From: a virus
Virus record (IMG/VR): IMGVR_UViG_3300048835_000175
Coordinates: 1-38,289 of that record
Strand: one strand, 5' to 3'
DNA: 38,289 bases
Below, in pieces: positions 22,578 through 34,771 of the stretch. The position numbers and the translations under genes are program-made. Numbering within the stretch: position 1 is the first letter of the stretch; each line of letters starts with the position of its first letter. The notes beneath the pieces are model-generated. The model worked only from the letters and a program-made list of their open reading frames with translations. It did not search any database and had not been told where the DNA came from.

Positions 22578-22871
22578 TTAATCGAACCACACGGGGCCGT
22601 CAAGCCCCGCAGCCGTCATCCTGGCCTGCCACCGCTTCCGGTCGGCGATACGGGCGCCTGCGGCGGCTACGGCGGCCAGGAAGCGGTCGGCGTTGAGGTC
22701 GTAGCACTCCAGCATGTGCACCTCGACGCCGGCCCACTCCTGGCCGATCAACTGCCATTCGATCTCCGGGTCGCGCGGGTCGATGTAGCTCCAGTCGTCG
22801 GGGTCCAGGAGTAGGCCGTCTTCCGCCCAGGTGCGCGCCTCGAAGATCGAGCGAGCCAGAATGTAGATCAC
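22578..22871 (-). CDS. Hypothetical protein, last gene of leftward operon
   Basis: A 97-residue protein starting at GTG 22871 inside the stop of the macro-like gene (GTGA). The frame is open upstream but only as a shadow of that gene. The sequence is acidic in the first half (EDGLLLDPDDWSYIDPRDPE), aromatic-rich, and has a helix with AAVAAAGARIADRKRWQARM. No family recognised. It is the end of the operon, just before its terminator. Confidence 0.65.
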   Translation of the reverse strand: MIYILARSIFEARTWAEDGLLLDPDDWSYIDPRDPEIEWQLIGQEWAGVEVHMLECYDLNADRFLAAVAAAGARIADRKRWQARMTAAGLDGPVWFD

Positions 22872-23245
22872 GGCGCCCCCGTGTAGTCGACGGGCACCAG
22901 GCGCCCCAGGTCGCCCAGGAAGTGCACGTTGGCAGGCACGCTCGGCGGGAACAGCGCCGCGATGCTGTCGGGCCGGTAGCCGCCGAGCCCGCATCCGATG
23001 TCGACCACGTTGAACTTCAGCTCGGGATGGCGCCGCGCGTACGCGACGAACAGATTGATGCTGCCCTTGATTGCGCGCAGGCTGCGGACGCGCATCTGGT
23101 AGTCCTTCGTCGGGATGGCGTAGGCGCGACCCGTACGACCTTCGCCAACACCCTGCGCCGCGTCGTGCTTCTCCTTCGCAGTTCGCGCGCTACCTTTACC
23201 GTGGCGGCCACCTTGATTGGAGCCGAACACGAATATTTCGTTCAC
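22868..23245 (-). CDS. Macro-domain-like phage protein (A1S_2505 type)
   Basis: A 125-residue protein starting at GTG, with AGGAGA about 7 bases upstream and a four-base overlap with the gene before. It opens MNEIFVFGSNQGGRHGKGSA, then GVGEGRTGRAYAIPTKD, and has DIGCGLGGYRPDSIA: these are hallmarks of a phage/bacterial family related to macro domains, which bind ADP-ribose or its derivatives. It could remove or sense ADP-ribose marks or NAD-derived signals made by host defences. The fold assignment is firm; the substrate is inference. Confidence 0.82.
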   Translation of the reverse strand: MNEIFVFGSNQGGRHGKGSARTAKEKHDAAQGVGEGRTGRAYAIPTKDYQMRVRSLRAIKGSINLFVAYARRHPELKFNVVDIGCGLGGYRPDSIAALFPPSVPANVHFLGDLGRLVPVDYTGAP

Positions 23246-23673
23246 GAGGCGTCTCCTGAAAGTAGTTCATCCCAAGTCGGGCCGCAGGCATTTCCGTACA
23301 ATACTGCTTGGAACAACGCGATGCGGTCATCCTTCTCTAGCAAGTTGAAGCGTTTCGCTATGCTGGTAGCAGCCAAGAAGCGACGGTGAAATTCTTTGTC
23401 CGTGGTCAGCACTAGGTTTAGTTCGCCGTTGCGGTAAGAGCGGAAGCCGACGCCTTCGTTGAGCGCGTTGGCGTAGTGTTCGCAGCCGTCAAACTCCCAG
23501 CCGAGAAGCTCTAGGTCGAACAGCAAGTCAGGCCAGGCTTCTTCACTGACGTAGCACAGCACGTCCTGGTCCGTGTCGGTCGGCGGCGGGCTGCACGTAA
23601 CGCGGGAGCCTACAAGCGTCACTGCTACGCAATAGGCTTCCAGGCAGTCCGGCAGTTCGACCTCGGCGTTCAC
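23242..23673 (-). CDS. Nucleotidyltransferase-like protein
   Basis: A 143-residue protein starting at GTG 23673 in a GTGA overlap. Residues 20-40 (LVGSRVTCSPPPTDTDQDVL) carry the Pol-beta-type nucleotidyltransferase pattern: Gly22-Ser23, then Asp33-X-Asp35 (and Asp37) after a short loop. ELNLVLTTD near residue 88 could supply the third strand acid. The C-terminal half (FHRRFLAATSIAKRFNLLEK) is helical. Such proteins add nucleotides to protein, RNA or small molecules. The motif is visible; the target is unknown. Confidence 0.65.
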   Translation of the reverse strand: MNAEVELPDCLEAYCVAVTLVGSRVTCSPPPTDTDQDVLCYVSEEAWPDLLFDLELLGWEFDGCEHYANALNEGVGFRSYRNGELNLVLTTDKEFHRRFLAATSIAKRFNLLEKDDRIALFQAVLYGNACGPTWDELLSGDAS

Positions 23674-24557
23674 TTGAACGTCTCCACAAACTTGACCATT
23701 TTTGCGCGGGTCTTCTTCAGCTCGGCGGCCCACTTGTCCCACGCTTTCGTGTCGATGCACTTCTCGATCTCCTTGAGCGCGACGGCGTTCAAGATGTCCG
23801 GCGGCAGCGCGTCCAGCTCCCAGCTCGACTCGCCGAACTTCCGGCGGTAGCTGACGAACCGCGAGTCGGTCGTCTTCGCAGGATTGGGCGGCGGGCTCAG
23901 TTCTTCGATCTGGTTGAAGTTCAGCGCCAAGCGCTTGAGCTTGAACCGCGCGTAGCCGCTGAAGAGGTCGAACCGCTCTTCCAGGTCGCGCGTCATGTCG
24001 ATGCCGCTCGGGTCGTGGTCGCCGAAGTGCAGCAGCGTGATCTCCTTGACGCTCTTCGAGTAGCTGTTGCCGTTGAGCGTGGTCTCGGCGAACTCGCGCA
24101 CGACGGACGCGCTCGGGTAGCCGCGTGCGGCCAGGAGCGGGATGTCGTACGTGCGGCACAACCGCTGGAACACACCGGAGAGCGCTTCTTTCTCGACGAT
24201 CAAGAACACGCGCTCTTCCTGCGTCGCCCGCGGGTCGGTGTGGTACTGCTCAGCCGCGCCGCGCAGGATGTCCTTGGGTTCGGTCCAGCGGTTGCGGCCG
24301 ACGAACGAACGCGTGCGGTCCTCGATGGCGTCCCAATCAATCAGGCCCGCGATGCGCGCGTCGTTGACGATGCCGGCGACGTTCTTGTAGGACTTCTCGG
24401 TGTTCTCGATGATCGCGCGAGCGACTAGCTGATAGAAAAGCTGGCGAACCGTCAACACATAGCCCTGCGCTATGTACTCTTCGATTATCGAGTTCATCTG
24501 TTCGATCAACTTGAGCGTAGACTTGCGGAAACTGATTTCGCGATAGCGCTGCTTCAT
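23670..24557 (-). CDS. Spo11/topoisomerase VI-A-like TOPRIM protein
   Basis: A 295-residue protein. ATG 24557 is preferred: it sits in an ATGA overlap and follows AGGAAAA; an ATG 19 codons upstream lies inside the neighbouring gene. The TOPRIM part has acidic residues Glu122/Glu124 (LIVEKEALSG) and Asp180-X-Asp182 (HFGDHDPSGIDM). Upstream, VRQLFYQLVARAI (35-47) resembles the catalytic-Tyr helix of Spo11/Top6A, with Tyr42 80 residues before the TOPRIM Glu. That order and spacing are like Top6A. No B-subunit ATPase gene is visible. It may cut or bind DNA ends. Confidence 0.72.
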   Translation of the reverse strand: MKQRYREISFRKSTLKLIEQMNSIIEEYIAQGYVLTVRQLFYQLVARAIIENTEKSYKNVAGIVNDARIAGLIDWDAIEDRTRSFVGRNRWTEPKDILRGAAEQYHTDPRATQEERVFLIVEKEALSGVFQRLCRTYDIPLLAARGYPSASVVREFAETTLNGNSYSKSVKEITLLHFGDHDPSGIDMTRDLEERFDLFSGYARFKLKRLALNFNQIEELSPPPNPAKTTDSRFVSYRRKFGESSWELDALPPDILNAVALKEIEKCIDTKAWDKWAAELKKTRAKMVKFVETFK

Positions 24558-25036
24558 GGCTTTTTCCTGTCGGCGGACCTGTTGCTGGATTTGAGATTGC
24601 GCAGCTTTTCCCAATACTCGCTGCGCCGTTGTTCTAGCTCTTCGCTAACCGTGTCGCCCCCTCCGTTGCCGCCTCGTTTAGCTAGAGGCAAACGCAGGAA
24701 GTCCAGCGCGGTCAACGCCTCTTCTCGTTTCGTTACAAACCACGGGAGCAGTGCTTCTAGCACGGTCTCTGCGTCGCCTGCATTGCAGAACCAAACGTAC
24801 GCCGAAGAGTAGTGCGCGTGCTGCTTCTGCTGCGAGTGCAGCGTCCCGACGCCAGTCAGCTCGCGGCACCGGAGCACTGTCGGCAAATGGCACATGCTCA
24901 CTTTCAATATCAGGCGGTAGTTGTAGCTGATCGACGCGTTGTGCGGCTGCGGGTTTCTCCGGGTGAGGCTTATGCAGCCTTCGCCGTCAATCAGCCCTGC
25001 GAGCCACGCCAGTTGTTCGCGTCGGTCAGTTCGCAT
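24554..25036 (-). CDS. LAGLIDADG-family homing endonuclease-like protein
   Basis: A 160-residue protein with a single motif, WLAGLIDGEGCISL (residues 11-24), where Asp17/Glu19 would bind metal at the dimer interface. One motif means it would act as a homodimer. KVSMCHLPTVLRCRELTGVG and a loop with QQKQHAHYSSAYVWF fit the DNA-binding saddle. It overlaps the small acidic gene by 11 bases and the TOPRIM gene by 3, so it is embedded in the operon, not in an intron or intein. It might favour its own spread among related phages. Confidence 0.8.
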   Translation of the reverse strand: MRTDRREQLAWLAGLIDGEGCISLTRRNPQPHNASISYNYRLILKVSMCHLPTVLRCRELTGVGTLHSQQKQHAHYSSAYVWFCNAGDAETVLEALLPWFVTKREEALTALDFLRLPLAKRGGNGGGDTVSEELEQRRSEYWEKLRNLKSSNRSADRKKP

Positions 25037-25223
25037 TTGAGTCTTCGCCCCCGTCGTTTTCCCAATAGGACATTTCGTCGTCGGCAGCTTCTTCGGGGCT
25101 GCTGTCGTAGTCATGGTCGTCCGCGCCTGCCTCGAAACATGCGCTGGCGCCTTCCGCGTCGACGCCGCAAGCAACCATGCGTGCGACGTAGCGGGCTTTC
25201 CACTGGTCTCTATCTTGGCTCAT
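25026..25223 (-). CDS. Small acidic protein
   Basis: A 65-residue protein starting at ATG in an ATGA overlap with the methyltransferase gene. The N-terminus is a helix (DQWKARYVARMVACGVDAEGA); residues 32-65 are very acidic (DDHDYDSSPEEAADDEMSYW). DNA-mimic anti-defence proteins can look like this, but nothing else supports that. Family not recognised. Confidence 0.65.
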   Translation of the reverse strand: MSQDRDQWKARYVARMVACGVDAEGASACFEAGADDHDYDSSPEEAADDEMSYWENDGGEDSNAN

Positions 25224-25870
25224 CTCGGTGCTCCTGGTGAATTTACTTTGTGTACCGCGTAGGCGAACCCCATAGGGGTCGCGCTTCTAAAATTTGCGCG
25301 TTCGTCGCCGGGGGGCGCTTTGTGAATGCGGTCGTCCGGGGGCCCAATATTCTTCAAGCGGAAAGGCGGCGGCATCACGAATCCCCCCCCCGTCCAAAGC
25401 CACGTTTCTTTTTTGTAGTTATCTTCAGACACGTAGCCGGTGTAGTCGTAAGGCTGGAACTTGTGTTGTGCTTTTCCGAAAATGCGGCTAAAAGCACTTT
25501 TCGGGTTTTCAAACATCCACGGCGCTCCTGACAACGCGCCTATCGTCCTACATTGTTCCGCGACTATGGCGGCGCGTGCCTGAAAGTAAGGGTCTGCTTT
25601 ACGTTTGCGCGACCACCAGCGCGTCCCGCTGAGCGATACATCGGTACACGGCGGAAAACCAGCAACAAACACCAATCGGTCTGCGCGCAAAACGTTTCCT
25701 ATCTGCGCGAAACACTGGTCAATAGTTGCACCTACGCGCGTAATGCGGCCGTCTCGACTTAGCCCGCGCGGGTGCTGCGGGTCAACCAAGACGATGCGAT
25801 AGCCTGCTTCGAGCCAAGGTCGCCCCATATGGCCCGTAAGGTCGCACAGGAACAAAGCTACGTCTCTCAT
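25220..25870 (-). CDS. DNA C5-cytosine methyltransferase
   Basis: A 216-residue enzyme. ATG 25870 has AGGAG 7 bases upstream; a GTG one codon before is too close to it. It has the C5-methyltransferase elements: a SAM-site strand and loop (ALFLCDLTGHMGRPW, 5-19), the catalytic Cys75 in GFPPCTDVS, the ENPKS motif (121-125), and a closing TPMGFAYAVHKVN segment. It is short: there is little room for a target-recognition domain, and a QxRxR motif is not evident. It may protect phage DNA against host restriction. Confidence 0.85.
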   Translation of the reverse strand: MRDVALFLCDLTGHMGRPWLEAGYRIVLVDPQHPRGLSRDGRITRVGATIDQCFAQIGNVLRADRLVFVAGFPPCTDVSLSGTRWWSRKRKADPYFQARAAIVAEQCRTIGALSGAPWMFENPKSAFSRIFGKAQHKFQPYDYTGYVSEDNYKKETWLWTGGGFVMPPPFRLKNIGPPDDRIHKAPPGDERANFRSATPMGFAYAVHKVNSPGAPR

Positions 25871-25880
25871 CACAGTGCTC

Positions 25881-26459
25881 CTAGTGAACGATCTTCGCGC
25901 TGCCGAACAACAGGCGTTGCTTAACCAGGTCGGTGCGGAGGATCTGCTCGGCGACTGGCACCTGGACGTTGGTTCGCGCCATGCGGCGGTAATACTCGAA
26001 CGGCGGCACGATGCCGGTGACGAAGCGGCAGATGGCGCGAACGATCTCGGCAGAGTTCAGCTCGAAAAACGTGCCGGTCATCACGTCGCTGCGCATGCGT
26101 AGGCTGTTCGCCAGCTCGACCAGCTGCTTTTCCGCGCTGCGCACATTGAGCGGCGGGTTGACGTTGAGCCGCTTCATCGAGTGCTCGACCTCATGCGCAG
26201 GTCGGTGGACGATGATGTACTTCGCGCCGGGGAAGCGGACAACCAGCTTGTCGAAGAAGAACAACGCGGCCACGTCGGCGATGAAAATGTTGCCGGGCGT
26301 GGAGATGTCGTCGATCTTGCGGCCCAACTCTTCGATGCTCGCGCACTGCTGCAACGGGTTGTGCCAGGACGCCGCGCAGTACGGACGCATGAACTGCGCG
26401 AGCCAGGCGCTACGGCTGCGCGGGAGGCACAGCAGGAAGGTGACGTGGTTGTAGCTCAT
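25881..26459 (-). CDS. Sulfotransferase-like protein
   Basis: A 192-residue protein; ATG in an ATGA overlap with AAGGAG just upstream. Residues 9-20 (LLCLPRSRSAWL) match the 5'-phosphosulfate-binding loop of PAPS-dependent sulfotransferases, and YIIVHRPAHEVEHSMKRL (81-98) matches the 3'-phosphate-binding strand and helix, with Arg86 and Ser94. Similar proteins occur in other phage genomes. The acceptor is unknown: a host glycan, a metabolite or a nucleotide are all possible. It might also only bind PAPS or PAP. Confidence 0.72.
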   Translation of the reverse strand: MSYNHVTFLLCLPRSRSAWLAQFMRPYCAASWHNPLQQCASIEELGRKIDDISTPGNIFIADVAALFFFDKLVVRFPGAKYIIVHRPAHEVEHSMKRLNVNPPLNVRSAEKQLVELANSLRMRSDVMTGTFFELNSAEIVRAICRFVTGIVPPFEYYRRMARTNVQVPVAEQILRTDLVKQRLLFGSAKIVH

Positions 26460-26818
26460 GCGTTCTCCTTCGCTTCGAGCGCTTCCGCCAGTTGGCGCCA
26501 GTTCGTCATGTACTCAACAGCTTTAGCGAATGTCCACGCGTGCGTGTAGTCCTCTTCGCAGGTAACGTGGTCGGCGGTGATGCGGCCTCGAACTTTCGTG
26601 CGCGTCCATTCGATGCTGAGAACCCGCTTCCGCCAACCGACCTTCAGTACGCCGTACTTCGTCGTAACCAGGAACCACGGCGGCACAGACACGTAGACGG
26701 GCGGCCAATAGCCGTTGACGATCTCGTCGACATGCAGAATTTCGATGCCGGCGAGCAGAAAGACCGCGCGCAGCTCAGCCTCGGTGATGCGCGGAAGAGG
26801 CTTGGCGTCACCGGACAT
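26456..26818 (-). CDS. Hypothetical protein
   Basis: A 120-residue protein. ATG 26818 follows GGAG and overlaps the MazG-like gene by 11 bases. It has a helix (ITEAELRAVFLLAGIEILHV), a beta region (VYVSVPPWFLVTTKYGVLKV, WRKRVLSIEWTRTKVRG) and a C-terminal helix (WTFAKAVEYMTNWRQLAEAL). Family not recognised. The mixed fold and tight coupling with MazG-like and sulfotransferase-like genes are all that can be said. Confidence 0.65.
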   Translation of the reverse strand: MSGDAKPLPRITEAELRAVFLLAGIEILHVDEIVNGYWPPVYVSVPPWFLVTTKYGVLKVGWRKRVLSIEWTRTKVRGRITADHVTCEEDYTHAWTFAKAVEYMTNWRQLAEALEAKENA

Positions 26819-27464
26819 CGCCGTCTCCGTGCAGCGTGCCGCGCTCGACGCGGCCCTGGAGCTTGTCGACGTTCGAGCGCAGCAGCGACACGTAGCCGCC
26901 GTTGATGCCGACCACGGGCGCGGTGCGCTCAGCAAAGTGGTAGCTGACGGCGATGAACTGGCTCAGGCTGGTTTCCAGTTCTTCCATCTTCTCGGCGGCT
27001 TTTGCGGGCGACCACATGGCGCCGTCGCGCAGCATCTTCTTGACGACGCCTTGCACCAGGCCCGCGTGCTTCGAGAGCTTCATCGTCAGGTCCAGGCCCG
27101 ACATGATGTTGCGCTCATCGGGGCCGAGGCCGAGATAGATTTCTTCCGCCGTGGAGACCAACATCGGGAAAGACATGATGTCAGGCAGCTCCGCGCACAA
27201 ACGCGCCGCGTACCACTGGCAGTCGCCGAGTTCTTTCCAGCCGCGCTCGTACTGCGCCTGCCGCTGCTCGCTCGGAATCTCGAACACTTCGGCCAGTTCG
27301 CCGGTCTCGTTGCCGAGGCCGAGCGCGCAATAGACCAGGCCGCCCTGCTCGCCGACGCCGGGGTAGGTCGCGGTCGACTCGGTGAACAGCACGTAGTTGG
27401 TAGCGGCCTGGCGCAGCGCGAGGCCGGTGACGTTGTTTCGCTTCTTGAGGGACAAGGTGTTCAT
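26808..27464 (-). CDS. MazG-like nucleoside triphosphate pyrophosphohydrolase
   Basis: A 218-residue protein starting at the ATG of an ATGA overlap; the longer open frame upstream is a shadow of neighbouring genes. It has the MazG-type metal-binding pattern ExxE(12-28)ExxD: Glu53/Glu56 in GNETGELAEV and Glu78/Asp81 in WKELGDCQWYAA. MazG-like enzymes hydrolyse (d)NTPs and, in some phages, are thought to alter ppGpp or nucleotide pools. The C-terminal part (LSKHAGLVQGVVKKMLRD) is helical and may complete the four-helix dimer. Confidence 0.8.
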   Translation of the reverse strand: MNTLSLKKRNNVTGLALRQAATNYVLFTESTATYPGVGEQGGLVYCALGLGNETGELAEVFEIPSEQRQAQYERGWKELGDCQWYAARLCAELPDIMSFPMLVSTAEEIYLGLGPDERNIMSGLDLTMKLSKHAGLVQGVVKKMLRDGAMWSPAKAAEKMEELETSLSQFIAVSYHFAERTAPVVGINGGYVSLLRSNVDKLQGRVERGTLHGDGDVR

Positions 27465-27712
27465 TGCAGTGGGTGCTCCGTGAGGTTTAGGAACTCGATG
27501 AACTCGATGAGGTCGCGCGGGTCCGGTTCGTCGGCGCCCCACACGTAGCCTCGGTAGTCGACGGTGCCGAGGGGCGGCTCTGCGTAGACGGTGCCGTCTT
27601 CCGGTTGGTATTCGACAAGGACGTTGAACCTGCCTGCCTGCAACAACTTCAGCCGCACGATGGCGACCTCCGTTCCGTTGCGACACAGGAAGACCGCGTC
27701 CGGGAGCATCAC
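27461..27712 (-). CDS. Hypothetical small protein
   Basis: An 83-residue protein starting at GTG 27712 (GTGA overlap), with GGAG 11 bases upstream; an ATG is the next codon. It is beta-rich at first (EVAIVRLKLLQAGRFNVLVE) and has an acidic C-terminal helix (PRDLIEFIEFLNLTE). Aromatic and Pro residues cluster around YRGYVWGADEPDP. Family not recognised. Confidence 0.62.
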   Translation of the reverse strand: MMLPDAVFLCRNGTEVAIVRLKLLQAGRFNVLVEYQPEDGTVYAEPPLGTVDYRGYVWGADEPDPRDLIEFIEFLNLTEHPLQ

Positions 27713-28173
27713 GGCAGCAAAGTCTCCGCGAAGTCCGCGCTGTGCTCGACGCGGAACTCTTTGATGCCGTCGTCCAGGACCAACGACGGTTCGCCTTTCG
27801 CCGGACGCAGCAGCACGAAGTCACGGCCACGCACGGCTTCGACTTCGCGAATCAACTCGCCGGTCACGGGGTTCTTGAAGACGACGAAGACCTTCAGCGC
27901 GTCGGGCGTCTCGCGGCCCAGGCGGCGCTCGTGCTTGATCGTGCGCTGCGCGGACTTGCCGCCCATGATCTTCGCGAGCTTCTTGGCGACGGTGCCGATC
28001 TCTTCATTGGCGACCACGTTGCCCTTGATCGTGCGGTTCTTGCGGTTCTCGGTGACGCGGTCGCGCGCAGCCAGGCCCGCGTAGTAGCGGCGGTCAACTT
28101 GCGACATCTTCTCCGCATGCGTGAGCGGGACGGGCTGGCTCATGTCGATAGGGAAGCTGGCGGAATTTTGCAT
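27709..28173 (-). CDS. Hypothetical protein
   Basis: A 154-residue protein. The ATG at 28173 is chosen because AAGGAG lies 5 bases upstream; an in-frame start 12 codons earlier would fall inside a terminator hairpin. The first half is basic and helical (KMSQVDRRYYAGLAARDRVT, TVAKKLAKIMGGKSAQRTIK), possibly nucleic-acid binding. The second half is beta (ALKVFVVFKNPVTGELIREV, DFVLLRP). It is the first gene after an intrinsic terminator in the operon, so its level may be lower than that of the upstream genes. Family not recognised. Confidence 0.68.
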   Translation of the reverse strand: MQNSASFPIDMSQPVPLTHAEKMSQVDRRYYAGLAARDRVTENRKNRTIKGNVVANEEIGTVAKKLAKIMGGKSAQRTIKHERRLGRETPDALKVFVVFKNPVTGELIREVEAVRGRDFVLLRPAKGEPSLVLDDGIKEFRVEHSADFAETLLP

Positions 28174-28190
28174 GGAGACTCCTTCGGAAA

Positions 28191-28226
28191 TAAAAAGCGG
28201 CCCGGTCACAGAATGACAAGGCCGCT
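28191..28226 (-). terminator. Intrinsic terminator inside the leftward operon
   Basis: On the minus strand AGCGGCC (28226-28220) pairs with GGCCGCT (28202-28196), with an inner GTCA/TGAC pairing, and is followed by TTTTTA (28195-28191 and on). It lies just after the histone-like gene and would make that gene's mRNA more abundant than the downstream genes. Confidence 0.78.
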
Positions 28227-28249
28227 GTAGGTTGTGCTGCCTGCGCCGA

Positions 28250-28591
28250 TTACTTCCTGGCGACGAACTTCGTGCTCTTCTGCACGCTGCCGCTCTTCGC
28301 CGAGCGGAAGATCGTGATGATCGTGCCGGCTTCGGCCATGATGCTCGCGTCTTCGATGGCGGCGCCTTCGCTGCCGAACGGGCCAGCCAGGTTGGCGATC
28401 ATCTTGCCGGTCGGCTTGCCTTCGACGACTTCCGGCGTCTCGATCAGGTACGCGTAGCGCTTACCTTCGACCTTCGGCGCCTTCTGCTTCGCCGGCTTCT
28501 CGCTGGCGACGTTCGCCGGGCGCGTGCTGGCAGTCTTGCGTGCCGTTTTCTTGGCGGGCTTCTTCGTTGCTTTCTTTCGTGCTGCGGCCAT
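28250..28591 (-). CDS. Basic histone H1-like protein
   Basis: A 113-residue protein starting at ATG 28591, with CAGGAG 7 bases upstream. Residues 1-42 are Lys/Ala/Pro/Thr rich with repeated KK and AKK units (RKKATKKPAKKTARKT), like bacterial and eukaryotic H1-type tails that bind DNA without sequence preference. Residues 43-113 look folded (RYAYLIETPEVVEGKPTGKM, GTIITIFRSAKSG). Standing alone between gaps and followed by a terminator, it may be made in quantity. It may coat phage or host DNA. Function inferred from composition. Confidence 0.75.
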   Translation of the reverse strand: MAAARKKATKKPAKKTARKTASTRPANVASEKPAKQKAPKVEGKRYAYLIETPEVVEGKPTGKMIANLAGPFGSEGAAIEDASIMAEAGTIITIFRSAKSGSVQKSTKFVARK

Positions 28592-28651
28592 TGTGTTGCT
28601 CCTGTTGCTAGCCATCGCGGGATTGCGAAGGCGGGTCCGCCGTGGCGGGGG

Positions 28652-28939
28652 TTACTTGCTCAAGCGCGGGACGATCTTTCCGTGTTCCCAGCGGCCGTGC
28701 GTGCCGTCCTCGAAGCGCGGCGTAGCGCGCAGGAAGGGCGCCGCGCAGACCTCGATGTGCTGGCGCACCGGACGCGGCGCCCTGCGGATGTAGAGCCACC
28801 TGGAGAGCGTGCCGGGCTTGGCGAACTTGCGGCTGCTCGCGCGGCCGAGACGCTGCTCGTCGAGTTCGTACTTCGGCTTTTCTCTCGGCGGTGCAAAAAA
28901 GCCCATCGCGGAAGCGGCGCGGGAGAAGAGACTGGTCAT
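28652..28939 (-). CDS. Hypothetical basic protein
   Basis: A 95-residue protein starting at ATG 28939, after AAGGAG spaced about 9 bases. It is rich in Arg and Pro (SSRKFAKPGTLSRWLYIRRA, PRPVRQHIEV) and starts with a short hydrophobic helix (SLFSRAASAMGFF). Family not recognised. The net charge would allow nucleic-acid binding. It lies between the cupin-like gene and the histone-like gene, with small gaps on both sides. Confidence 0.62.
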   Translation of the reverse strand: MTSLFSRAASAMGFFAPPREKPKYELDEQRLGRASSRKFAKPGTLSRWLYIRRAPRPVRQHIEVCAAPFLRATPRFEDGTHGRWEHGKIVPRLSK

Positions 28940-28956
28940 GCGGTGTACTCCTTGGG

Positions 28957-29613
28957 TTAATCGCAGCCAACCGTGGCGTTGGGCTTGGTCGGATGCGGGG
29001 CGAGGTATTCCTCGAAGTCGCGGAAGCCCTCGGGGCAGCGGAAACCCCAGCGCGAGCGACGCGGTCCGGTGAAGAAGAGCGTCATGCACGGCTGGTCGTT
29101 GTTCGGCCCATCGAGCTTGAGGTAGTGCGGATGCGGCATCGGCAGCTTGCGCCAGTCGCCTTCCGTGAAGCGCTGCTCGTAGCGCAGTCTGGTGCCGCCC
29201 AAGACCTCGTCGCGCGTCTGCGAGATCAGCTCGCGACCATCGGTCGGGTGCATCTTCCGGTACAGCGTGTAGTTGTCCTCGGTCTCGCTGTTGTGCTCCT
29301 GCTCGGTGACTTCGTAGTAGCGGCCGATCAGCATGAGCGACCAGGAGTTCCAGGCGTGCGTGTGCAGCGCGCGGTCGTCGTCGCCGTGCACGAAGATGTG
29401 CAGGTAGGCGTTGAACCAGCGGTTGCGCGGGATGAGATGCCAGCGCTGGAGGTACGGGCGCGGCGGGCCGCCGTCGATGCCGTCCAGGTCGATCAGCCGC
29501 GACGGCGGCATGATCTTGGCCCAGGCGCTGAAGAACGCGACGAACAGCTTCCAGAGCATGAGCTTGTTGAGGGTGTCGTAGAAGCGGCGGGACGTGGCGG
29601 GGATGGTCTGCAT
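28957..29613 (-). CDS. Cupin-like protein
   Basis: A 218-residue protein with AAGGA 7 bases before its ATG. The region YLHIFVHGDDDRALHTHAWN, followed by SLMLIGRYYEV, resembles a cupin metal site (H-T-H on one strand, then the G-x-Y-x-E turn). PHPHYLKL near residue 160 could give the third metal ligand. Such proteins in phages are mostly uncharacterised; dioxygenase, isomerase or binding roles are all possible. The N-terminal 35 residues include an amphipathic aromatic helix (LMLWKLFVAFFSAWAK) that may touch membrane. Confidence 0.6.
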   Translation of the reverse strand: MQTIPATSRRFYDTLNKLMLWKLFVAFFSAWAKIMPPSRLIDLDGIDGGPPRPYLQRWHLIPRNRWFNAYLHIFVHGDDDRALHTHAWNSWSLMLIGRYYEVTEQEHNSETEDNYTLYRKMHPTDGRELISQTRDEVLGGTRLRYEQRFTEGDWRKLPMPHPHYLKLDGPNNDQPCMTLFFTGPRRSRWGFRCPEGFRDFEEYLAPHPTKPNATVGCD

Positions 29614-29654
29614 GGCGGTTCCTTGAGAAGTAGGAATGTTACTGCGAGGCGAGA

Positions 29655-29888
29655 TTAACGCCAGGATTTCGGCTTGTCAACATTTTTCCGCGAGTCGGGC
29701 GGGCGGCTCAGCCGGGCCATCCGGGTCTCGCCCTGGAACAGCCGGTCCCGGACCATCTTTTCGGTCACGTGCGGGCAGTGCGCCTTGATCTGCTCGAACG
29801 TCATTTCCTCGCCGTCGATCTTGTAGAGCTTGACGCGCGAGACGGCTTTCACGGTGTAGCTGTCGTCGTCGAACTTCTTGCGGTTCAT
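29655..29888 (-). CDS. Small protein with helix-turn-helix-like segment
   Basis: A 77-residue basic protein starting at the ATG of an ATGA overlap with the zinc-ribbon gene. Residues 19-53 (VKLYKIDGEEMTFEQIKAHC, then PHVTEKMVRDRLFQGET) have the layout of a small DNA-binding helix-turn-helix, with a short leading strand often seen in phage and endonuclease-linked motifs. The C-terminus is basic. It may be a transcription regulator. The motif call is by eye. Confidence 0.6.
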   Translation of the reverse strand: MNRKKFDDDSYTVKAVSRVKLYKIDGEEMTFEQIKAHCPHVTEKMVRDRLFQGETRMARLSRPPDSRKNVDKPKSWR

Positions 29889-30085
29889 TCCTCGATCTCC
29901 ATGTTCCACTTCTGGCCGCAGTCTTCGCACACGTAGTCGCGCGTCTCCGCGAAATGCTCTGTCAGCGTTTCACCGTTGAGCCGGTAGATGCGCTCCGATG
30001 GCGGTATCTCGACGTATCGAACGTCGTGCGACGAACCGCATTTCGGGCAAGTCGTGCCCGTCTTATCTTGGGTGAACAAAATCAC
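29885..30085 (-). CDS. Zinc-ribbon protein
   Basis: A 66-residue protein starting at GTG 30085 in a GTGA overlap. Two CxxC knuckles, CPKCG (Cys13/Cys16) and CEDCG (Cys53/Cys56), flank a beta region, the layout of a zinc ribbon of about 45 residues. Such small ribbons bind nucleic acid or RNA polymerase. Its partner may be the adjoining helix-turn-helix gene. The exact role is unknown. Confidence 0.72.
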   Translation of the reverse strand: MILFTQDKTGTTCPKCGSSHDVRYVEIPPSERIYRLNGETLTEHFAETRDYVCEDCGQKWNMEIEE

Positions 30086-30585
30086 AGGCCGTCTCCGTAG
30101 GTGGTTTGCATGTGCTCGGGCACCGGGCCGGCGCCGTCGAGCGCGGCGATCACGGGCGCGAGCGTTTCCTGCACGTGTTCCGCGAACTCCGCCGCGCTGT
30201 CGTAGAAGAGATCGAGGCCGTCTTCCTGGCACTCGCGGTAGACCTTCAGCAGCGACGCCGCGACGCCAGGCATCATCGCCTGCATGCGGTAGAGCTGGTG
30301 CAGGATGAGCCAAGGCGCGCCCTTAGCGCCGCGCCACTTGTTCTTCTCGCTCGGGTTGAGTTCGAGGAAGCTGTCGATCAGCGCGTAGGCGATATGCGGC
30401 GACCACACCGGCAAGTCGATGGGCAGCAGCGGCTCGCCCATTTCGTCGAGCACATAGTAGACCGCGAAGACCGGCACGCTGCCGACGATGAAGACCGGCG
30501 TGGCCTGCTGGTAGGTGGCGATGCTGTAGCCGCGATGTTCGGCGACATGGCTGTACTTGCGGGTTTTTGCGGGAGGGGCTTGCAT
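30082..30585 (-). CDS. Hypothetical protein, paralogue A
   Basis: A 167-residue protein. ATG 30585 is preferred, with AGGA 10 bases upstream; the ATG nine codons earlier has no ribosome site. Residues 27-73 (VFIVGSVPVFAVYYVLDEMG, PIDLPVWSPHIAYALIDSFL) match the gene at 31339-31632 (VYLPGGVGVFTAFYVVDDMG, PIQAFFKSPVWACAAADILI), so the two are duplicates that have diverged. A helical C-terminal part (LLKVYRECQEDGLDLFYDSA) is absent from the shorter copy. Family not recognised. Confidence 0.65.
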   Translation of the reverse strand: MQAPPAKTRKYSHVAEHRGYSIATYQQATPVFIVGSVPVFAVYYVLDEMGEPLLPIDLPVWSPHIAYALIDSFLELNPSEKNKWRGAKGAPWLILHQLYRMQAMMPGVAASLLKVYRECQEDGLDLFYDSAAEFAEHVQETLAPVIAALDGAGPVPEHMQTTYGDGL

Positions 30586-30615
30586 GCAATTTAGTCCTGT
30601 GACGATGGGCATGAG

Positions 30616-31143
30616 TTAGACACCGAGGCCGATCAGACGAAGCTCCAGCAGCGTAGCGTCGTCATTGCTGTTGAGGTTGTAGACGGTAATCATGTATTCC
30701 TCGGCGATGCGCAGCGCTTGATCGGTGCCGCCGCTGTGGAACGGGTCGGTCCAGCAGACGATGAAGTCAACCGGCGACTGGCAGTCTTGTCCGAGAACCT
30801 GGTGCGAGTTGCGAGCGTGCAGCAGACGATGGTCGTTGACGAGCTTTTTCCAACGCGGGTGCGTCGCGGCTGCGATCTCCCAGGCGCGCGCACTCGGCGG
30901 CCAGCGCGAAGACTGGTGCCCGCCGTAGCCTTCGCACGGCAGGTAGATTTCCTTCTTGCACTTACCGCGCCCCGAGACCTGGGCTTCCATGTCGTGCCCG
31001 CTCTCGAACGCGAAGTCGGCGCCGCCCGCGCCGCCGCTGCGCAGAAGGTAGTTGGCGCGATAGAGCCGCCGCGCGTACTTCACGATGCGGAGGCACACGC
31101 TGTTCGGCGTGTTGCGCGAACCGATGCCGGCGTAGGCTTTCAT
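30616..31143 (-). CDS. SLOG-family (DprA-like) nucleotide-binding protein
   Basis: A 175-residue protein whose ATG overlaps the preceding TAA by one base. It starts KAYAGIGSRNTP and has YLLRSGGAGGADFAFESGHD, the two loops of the DprA/LOG-like Rossmann fold, and later VDFIVCWTDPFHSGGTDQAL, the third nucleotide-side loop. SLOG proteins bind or cleave nucleotides and nucleotide-derived signals; DprA itself binds single-stranded DNA. This short form has only the Rossmann domain. A part in nucleotide signalling or defence evasion is possible but inferred. Confidence 0.75.
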   Translation of the reverse strand: MKAYAGIGSRNTPNSVCLRIVKYARRLYRANYLLRSGGAGGADFAFESGHDMEAQVSGRGKCKKEIYLPCEGYGGHQSSRWPPSARAWEIAAATHPRWKKLVNDHRLLHARNSHQVLGQDCQSPVDFIVCWTDPFHSGGTDQALRIAEEYMITVYNLNSNDDATLLELRLIGLGV

Positions 31144-34357: not shown

Positions 34358-34771
34358 TTACTCCGTGCGGGTGATGCAGACGAAGAAGATGATGGCGTCG
34401 CCGCCGGCCGTGGTGAAGGAGCCGCGCTCCATCTTGAACTTCTTCTTCTTGTGCTCGGTGACGCGGCGCACCTTGGCGATGACGCCGGACCACACCGAGT
34501 TCTGTTCCTTGTACCAACGCTGCGAGTCGGTCGCGACGTTGATCGTGCGGTCGTCGTTGGCGATGCGGAGCGCGCTGCTCAACGATTCGTTCACCGCGAC
34601 CTGGCTCAGCCGATGGTTGCGCGAGCCCGGCACGAACGGGAATGGAATCTTGCTGGCGATCTGCTTCTCGACGCGCGTGGTCGGCTTGACGTTGCGACGC
34701 GGACGGATGTCGAGGCCAGGGTTGTTCGCCGTCGTGGTCTTGCTGTTTTTCTTCTGCGGGCTTGCGGCCAC
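34358..34771 (-). CDS. Hypothetical basic protein, first gene of leftward operon
   Basis: A 137-residue protein starting at GTG 34771, with AAAGGAG 6 bases upstream. It is the first gene after the leftward promoter. The N-terminal 35 residues are Lys/Arg/Thr/Pro rich and probably disordered. The rest mixes a helix (AVNESLSSALRIANDD) and strands (WSGVIAKVRRVTEHKKKKFK, DAIIFFVCITRTE). Early first genes of phage operons often target host polymerase or defence, but no motif shows this. Family not recognised. Confidence 0.68.
   Translation of the reverse strand: MAASPQKKNSKTTTANNPGLDIRPRRNVKPTTRVEKQIASKIPFPFVPGSRNHRLSQVAVNESLSSALRIANDDRTINVATDSQRWYKEQNSVWSGVIAKVRRVTEHKKKKFKMERGSFTTAGGDAIIFFVCITRTE

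Follow-up and report, generated by a model that had tools for sequence, protein, structure and literature searches.

Genes of the minus-strand arm

The 38,289-base virus record IMGVR_UViG_3300048835_000175, analysed in full and referred to below as the window, belongs to a Casjensviridae-type siphophage and, at 38.3 kb, is probably a fragment of a larger phage genome; its closest annotated relatives are Casjensviridae siphophages of 55.6-56.6 kb. A minus-strand arm of the window, heading towards plus-strand lysis genes, carries genes for a macro-like, a nucleotidyltransferase-like (NTase-like), a sulfotransferase-like, a MazG-like and a SLOG protein, which a preliminary description had put forward as a candidate undescribed system, perhaps countering immunity based on nicotinamide adenine dinucleotide (NAD) or nucleotide signals, or perhaps a phage signalling route. 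All five open reading frames (ORFs) are present on this strand and densely packed, and their family-level assignments hold, that of the NTase-like protein on its motif only. The features of the arm are listed below (aa, amino acids).

22578-22871, minus strand: unassigned ORF of 97 aa, the last gene of the arm, with a 4-bp overlap with the end of the macro-like gene
22868-23245, minus strand: macro-like protein, 125 aa (NCBIfam A1S_2505, PHROG 2072), a predicted TARG1/DarG-type ADP-ribosylhydrolase with invariant Lys47
23242-23673, minus strand: NTase-like protein, 143 aa (PHROG 15166), with a GS...TDTDxD motif
23670-24557, minus strand: DNA topoisomerase-like protein (PHROG 6247), a backbone gene of the arm
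24554-25036, minus strand: LAGLIDADG homing endonuclease, likely start at 25036, not found at this position in the relatives inspected
25220-25870, minus strand: DNA methyltransferase (PHROG 757), with relatives in 1,467 phage records
25881-26459, minus strand: sulfotransferase-like protein, 192 aa (PHROG 38824), a backbone gene in six relatives
26808-27464, minus strand: MazG-like pyrophosphohydrolase, 218 aa (PHROG 229), a backbone gene with its true start at 27464
28957-29613, minus strand: cupin annotated as 'cysteine dioxygenase' (PHROG 4786), a backbone gene
30616-31143, minus strand: SLOG/DprA-like protein, 175 aa (PHROG 768), found in none of six close relatives

All of the genes named in the preliminary description exist, but two had been extended too far upstream: the NTase-like gene begins near 23673 and not at 24159, the longer frame running through the topoisomerase gene, and the MazG start moves from 27830 to 27464. 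The methyltransferase, the LAGLIDADG homing endonuclease and the topoisomerase-like gene, which had been left out of the proposed set, lie interspersed among its members. Over the stretch from the gene at 28173 to position 22578, adjacent genes share 1-11 bp or stand no more than 10 bp apart, a spacing compatible with co-translation. Such dense same-strand packing makes the single early operon originally suggested plausible, but it is unproven, because promoter evidence does not rise above chance: the promoter scan returned one promoter-like site, on the opposite strand, against 2.5 expected, and the terminator scan 19 terminator-like sites against 19.2 expected. PADLOC gave no result for the window proteins.

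Conserved backbone and variable genes in relatives

The arm was compared with those of six close relatives that form essentially one clade: the Salvovirus members Xanthomonas phage AhaSv and Clavibacter phage 33, the Sanovirus members Stenotrophomonas phages Bhz60 and Suzuki, and the contigs 3300024290_000011 and 2974651518. The window phage and these Casjensviridae genera have a backbone gene order in common, conserved across the six relatives and consisting of the genes at 34358, 33840, 31339, 30082 and 29655, the cupin gene, the genes at 28250 and 27709, and the MazG, sulfotransferase-like and topoisomerase genes. Relative to Salvovirus and Sanovirus, the window has gained the SLOG, homing endonuclease, NTase-like and macro-like genes and is without two others, a NADAR gene and a kinase-nucleotidyltransferase fusion gene. 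NADAR follows the sulfotransferase-like gene directly in all six relatives and has no counterpart in the 38.3-kb window, itself probably incomplete. The fusion, found in five of the six shortly after the sulfotransferase-like gene, joins an adenosine 5'-phosphosulfate (APS)-kinase-like P-loop domain to a HIGH-type nucleotidyltransferase domain, the latter being nearest to archaeal nicotinamide mononucleotide (NMN) adenylyltransferase. It is possible, judging from these domains, that the fusion is a compact NAD-salvage enzyme with a domain order the reverse of that in NadR. At three loci it is placed just after NADAR (PHROG 10255 'kinase'; L002:15492-16232, L001:15213-15959 and L008:11346-12092).

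Within the proposed set, the MazG and sulfotransferase-like genes are thus part of the arm backbone in all six relatives. The SLOG, NTase-like and macro-like genes are present in none of the six arms, and searches of the six whole records likewise gave no match for the macro-like and SLOG proteins. Among 80 macro-family loci from viral contigs, four have a SLOG gene nearby, one a MazG gene and one a NADAR gene, and none has a sulfotransferase-like or NTase-like gene. At the level of whole contigs, a clear SLOG protein of the window's family occurs in 2 of 50 other macro contigs and in 0 of 50 topoisomerase control contigs, a difference that is not significant. No other sampled phage holds the complete five-gene set. 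Since the genes do not co-occur in the relatives, in the 80 macro loci or in the 50-contig samples, they are not co-inherited, and their proximity as a set gives no sign of anything beyond coincidence; genes that do not travel together look like separately acquired helpers. Absence of co-occurrence in relatives had been named beforehand as the outcome that would speak against an undescribed five-gene system, and that proposal falls with it.

Also in this comparison, the homing endonuclease gene and a 65-aa ORF (24554-25223) separate the DNA methyltransferase and topoisomerase genes of the window, which lie near each other in Bhz60 and contig 3300024290_000011; the two intervening frames are likely a recent insertion.

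The macro-like protein

The macro-like protein matches the NCBIfam model A1S_2505 (NF049995) at 3e-36 and 124 bits (cut-off 45), with nearly the whole model covered, and PHROG 2072 at 2e-35. Neither library gives a function for this family, which tblastn detects in 449 of 50,697 phage records; the record of Agrobacterium phage Milano names its own copy a macro protein on HHpred grounds. An AlphaFold2 model built from 36 sequences reached a mean predicted local distance difference test score (pLDDT) of 87.5 and a predicted template modelling score (pTM) of 0.84. In a Foldseek search of the PDB with this model, ranks 1-9 are all chains of TARG1 or DarG, at E values from 2e-4 to 4e-3. The best solved matches, with probabilities of up to 1.00, comprise TARG1 and DarTG, both at 2e-4, together with the DarG macrodomain of Thermus and further macro domains.

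A HMMER profile alignment to TARG1 sets the TK of 'YAIPTK' opposite that of 'YYLITK' and 'IGCGLAG' opposite 'IGCGLDR', the GCG loop. Lys47 of the window protein is thereby aligned with the catalytic Lys84 of TARG1, the lysine of 'LITK', and it is invariant in 36 of 36 family sequences. K84 of TARG1 and K80 of DarG are equivalent lysines required for the rescue of cells from DarT (PMC8501950), and thymidine de-ADP-ribosylation has been reported as a common function of the TARG1/DarG macro class (PMC9411070). With the fold, the lysine of the PTK/ITK motif and the GCG loop in common with TARG1 and DarG, the macro-like protein is most likely an ADP-ribosylhydrolase of this class, as predicted from the model and alignment. 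It differs from both in being a stand-alone phage protein of only 125 aa, known from sequence and model, with a sequence similarity near noise, and from DarG in having no DarT-binding C-terminal part. A DarT-like neighbour is also lacking: the gene is flanked by the NTase-like and 97-aa ORFs, and no transferase family match was obtained among the arm proteins scanned.

Interpretation of the arm

The reading we prefer, with a probability of roughly 0.55, is that the five genes are separately acquired accessory genes and not one system, and that the macro-like protein, the arm member with the clearest mechanism, is a TARG1/DarG-class ADP-ribosylhydrolase. The window phage would have taken the SLOG, homing endonuclease, NTase-like and macro-like genes into a conserved arm backbone. 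During infection, a host DarT toxin would put thymidine-linked ADP-ribose on single-stranded phage DNA, and the macro-like protein, by means of Lys47, would release ADP-ribose from a macromolecule, the thymidine-linked form being its most plausible substrate; removal of the mark from phage DNA would let replication continue. Because DarT-DarG systems halt phage DNA replication (PMC11481870), a phage-borne eraser among DNA-metabolism genes would be a sensible counter-measure. To judge from their relatives, the MazG protein most likely trims deoxynucleoside triphosphate (dNTP) pools and the NTase-like protein most likely serves replication.

Members of this one phage clade carry either NADAR or the macro-like gene. 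NADAR proteins take ADP-ribose off guanine, and as those tested removed guanine-linked and not thymidine-linked ADP-ribose, the pairing is suggestive; the macro-like protein could have replaced NADAR functionally in the window phage. A bolder version, in which the A1S_2505/PHROG 2072 family is an enzymatic anti-DarT2 factor removing thymidine-linked ADP-ribose from phage DNA and the clade swaps macro and NADAR genes according to the DarT class of its hosts, seems unlikely.

Several observations weigh against the proposed ADP-ribosylhydrolase and the independent acquisition of the genes. The fold match of the macro model is moderate, with template modelling (TM) scores of about 0.6-0.65 and a root-mean-square deviation above 4 A, and the sequence match to solved macro domains is weak, the profile search of the PDB giving E 0.22 to TARG1. 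Pfam Macro is reached at 0.024 and by 1 of 36 family members. Asp125 of TARG1 is not conserved in the family, although DarG has no equivalent of it either. Soluble ADP-ribose derivatives are further substrates of macro domains. The swap between NADAR and macro genes is seen in one small clade only, and no mutual exclusion is apparent outside it, NADAR occurring in 2 of 50 genomes with a macro gene and in 5 of 50 with a topoisomerase gene. A NADAR from a T4-type phage removed guanine ADP-ribose in vitro, but in cells it gave no rescue from the toxicity of DarT1 (PMC11125620). Finally, Agrobacterium phages 7-7-1 and Milano have NTase-like, MazG-like and DprA-like genes and a member of the same macro family within about 4-5 kb (L118:4013-8246 and L200:6238-10066), gatherings that are independent of the window. 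A general tendency to gather has been reported for the Macro, NADAR, SLOG and Nudix genes of viruses (PMC9503650), and these two loci may reflect a loose tendency of this kind.

Among the alternatives, joint processing by the macro-like and SLOG proteins of soluble ADP-ribose signals or toxins of Thoeris-like or RES-type immunity, such as cyclic ADP-ribose (cADPR) variants or ADP-ribose-1''-phosphate, is conceivable, though we consider it doubtful. Phage Macro, NADAR, SLOG and Nudix proteins have in general been proposed to act in this way, both genes stand on one arm in the window, and a macro-like gene is accompanied by a DprA-like one in Rhodobacter phage RcPeripeteia as well as in Milano and 7-7-1; the window's own SLOG family, however, accompanies the macro family in just the 2 of 50 genomes given above, and the macro-like protein resembles TARG1 and DarG, which act on macromolecules.

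Somewhat less probable is that the arm is a replication, nucleotide-pool and DNA-modification module, made up of the MazG, methyltransferase, topoisomerase and NTase-like genes and unrelated to immunity. The topoisomerase and methyltransferase genes do lie among the named ones. NTase-like relatives in the Autographiviridae (podophages) adjoin helicase, ligase and DNA polymerase genes, replication modules being their usual setting, and MazG relatives in Arthrobacter phages adjoin a DNA methyltransferase gene. The MazG of a cyanophage hydrolyses dGTP and dCTP, its preferred substrates, and not guanosine tetraphosphate (ppGpp) (PMC6850273). Such a module would nevertheless leave the macro-like and SLOG genes and the NADAR gene of the relatives unexplained, and the methyltransferase is missing from several relatives.

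A single dedicated system of all five genes, directed against immunity that relies on NAD or nucleotide signals as the preliminary description suggested, is now highly improbable. The genes are real and tightly packed on one strand, and the two Agrobacterium loci hold NTase-like, MazG-like, DprA-like and macro genes; yet these loci contain no sulfotransferase gene, and their DprA-like protein is of another subfamily that the window's SLOG profile does not match. The five are never found together elsewhere, three of them are absent from the six close relatives, and 0 of 80 macro loci include a sulfotransferase-like or NTase-like gene. Just as remote is a modification route using 3'-phosphoadenosine 5'-phosphosulfate (PAPS), marked by the sulfotransferase-like gene and supplied with its donor by the APS-kinase-like fusion of five of the six relatives: the candidate PAPS maker was rejected because its second domain fits NAD synthesis better and its gene is not in the window, and distant sulfotransferase relatives occur in other contexts, one of them in a contig where genes for head closure and DNA ejection lie nearby.

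Relation to described systems

Both the families and the general counter-immunity idea are already known. That phage Macro, NADAR and SLOG proteins counteract immunity derived from NAD was proposed in 2022 (Iyer et al. 2022, PMC9503650), and it is in this narrower, mostly published form, not as a five-gene system, that the original idea survives. The arm contains gene kinds of the viral NAD-ADP-ribose networks described there, namely macro and SLOG, and its relatives contain NADAR and an NMN-adenylyltransferase-like protein. In the main text of that study MazG is mentioned only twice and sulfotransferases not at all; compared with its networks, the macro and SLOG genes of the window are clade-specific additions. 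Two modest points are new: the predicted TARG1/DarG assignment, with an invariant catalytic-type lysine, of a common unassigned phage family of which the window protein is a member, and the occurrence of either NADAR or an A1S_2505 macro gene within one phage clade.

Of the described anti-DarT factors, AdfB acts by binding DarT, and the same has been hypothesised for AdfA (PMC11481870). The macro-like protein would have a proposed target in common with them, the attack of host DarT on phage DNA; neither factor is described as a macro enzyme, in contrast to the macro-like protein, which would erase the mark enzymatically. If true, this would be a route different from the toxin binding of AdfB, and presumably of AdfA. 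While the candidate new system is struck off, an enzymatic anti-DarT gene is left as a lead, and because the family is common, a positive result would annotate many genes that now have no function.

The remaining proteins of the set

Support for the NTase-like protein comes from its motif: GS, D35 and D37 are invariant in eight of eight sequences, but there is no conserved third acid, position 84 being E/D/V/Q and position 86 Asn. The window member has no Pfam or PDB match, and one relative reaches NTP_transf_5 at 0.047. The MazG-like protein matches PHROG 229 at 5e-16, and its ExxE...ExxD metal-binding residues E53, E56, E59, E78 and D81 are invariant in five of five sequences. The SLOG protein matches the DprA-like PHROG 768 at 2e-47, a family present in 1,040 phage records; its G-x-G-S after strand 1 and its SGG...GAD motif are retained, with G6, G8, G37, G41, A42 and D43 invariant in seven of seven members, five of which match Pfam DNA_processg_A (best 5e-4). 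Used as queries against PDB sequences, the sulfotransferase-like, MazG, SLOG and NTase-like proteins gave no significant match.

The sulfotransferase-like protein belongs to a real but rare family, with six phage records. It meets Pfam Sulfotransfer_4 at 2e-4 and 21.7 bits, just under the curated cut-off of 22.8, and the LPR[ST]RS 5'-phosphosulfate loop and the 3'-phosphate-binding Arg86 and Ser94 are invariant in six of six sequences. A structure model built on five sequences finds tyrosylprotein sulfotransferases at about 1e-3, but gluconokinase, one of the small kinases, equally well; its best BFVD matches are viral sulfotransferases. A literature search on phage sulfotransferases with PAPS yielded nothing useful. 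Viral-contig scans with a single sulfotransferase-like or NTase-like protein found no relatives, and alignments or core genes did better as queries. The distant sulfotransferase-like gene near the head-closure and DNA-ejection genes (L009:9959-10570) suggests a virion-related role in that phage. In Xanthomonas phage FoX4 (L006:11144-12345) a sulfotransferase-like gene adjoins a SLOG gene, the only other place where this pair was seen together. Between the MazG and sulfotransferase-like genes of the window sits a 120-aa gene (26456-26818), whose relative in contig 2974651518 (L008:11024-11353) lies between NADAR and the kinase fusion; these differing positions indicate that small genes shift within the arm.

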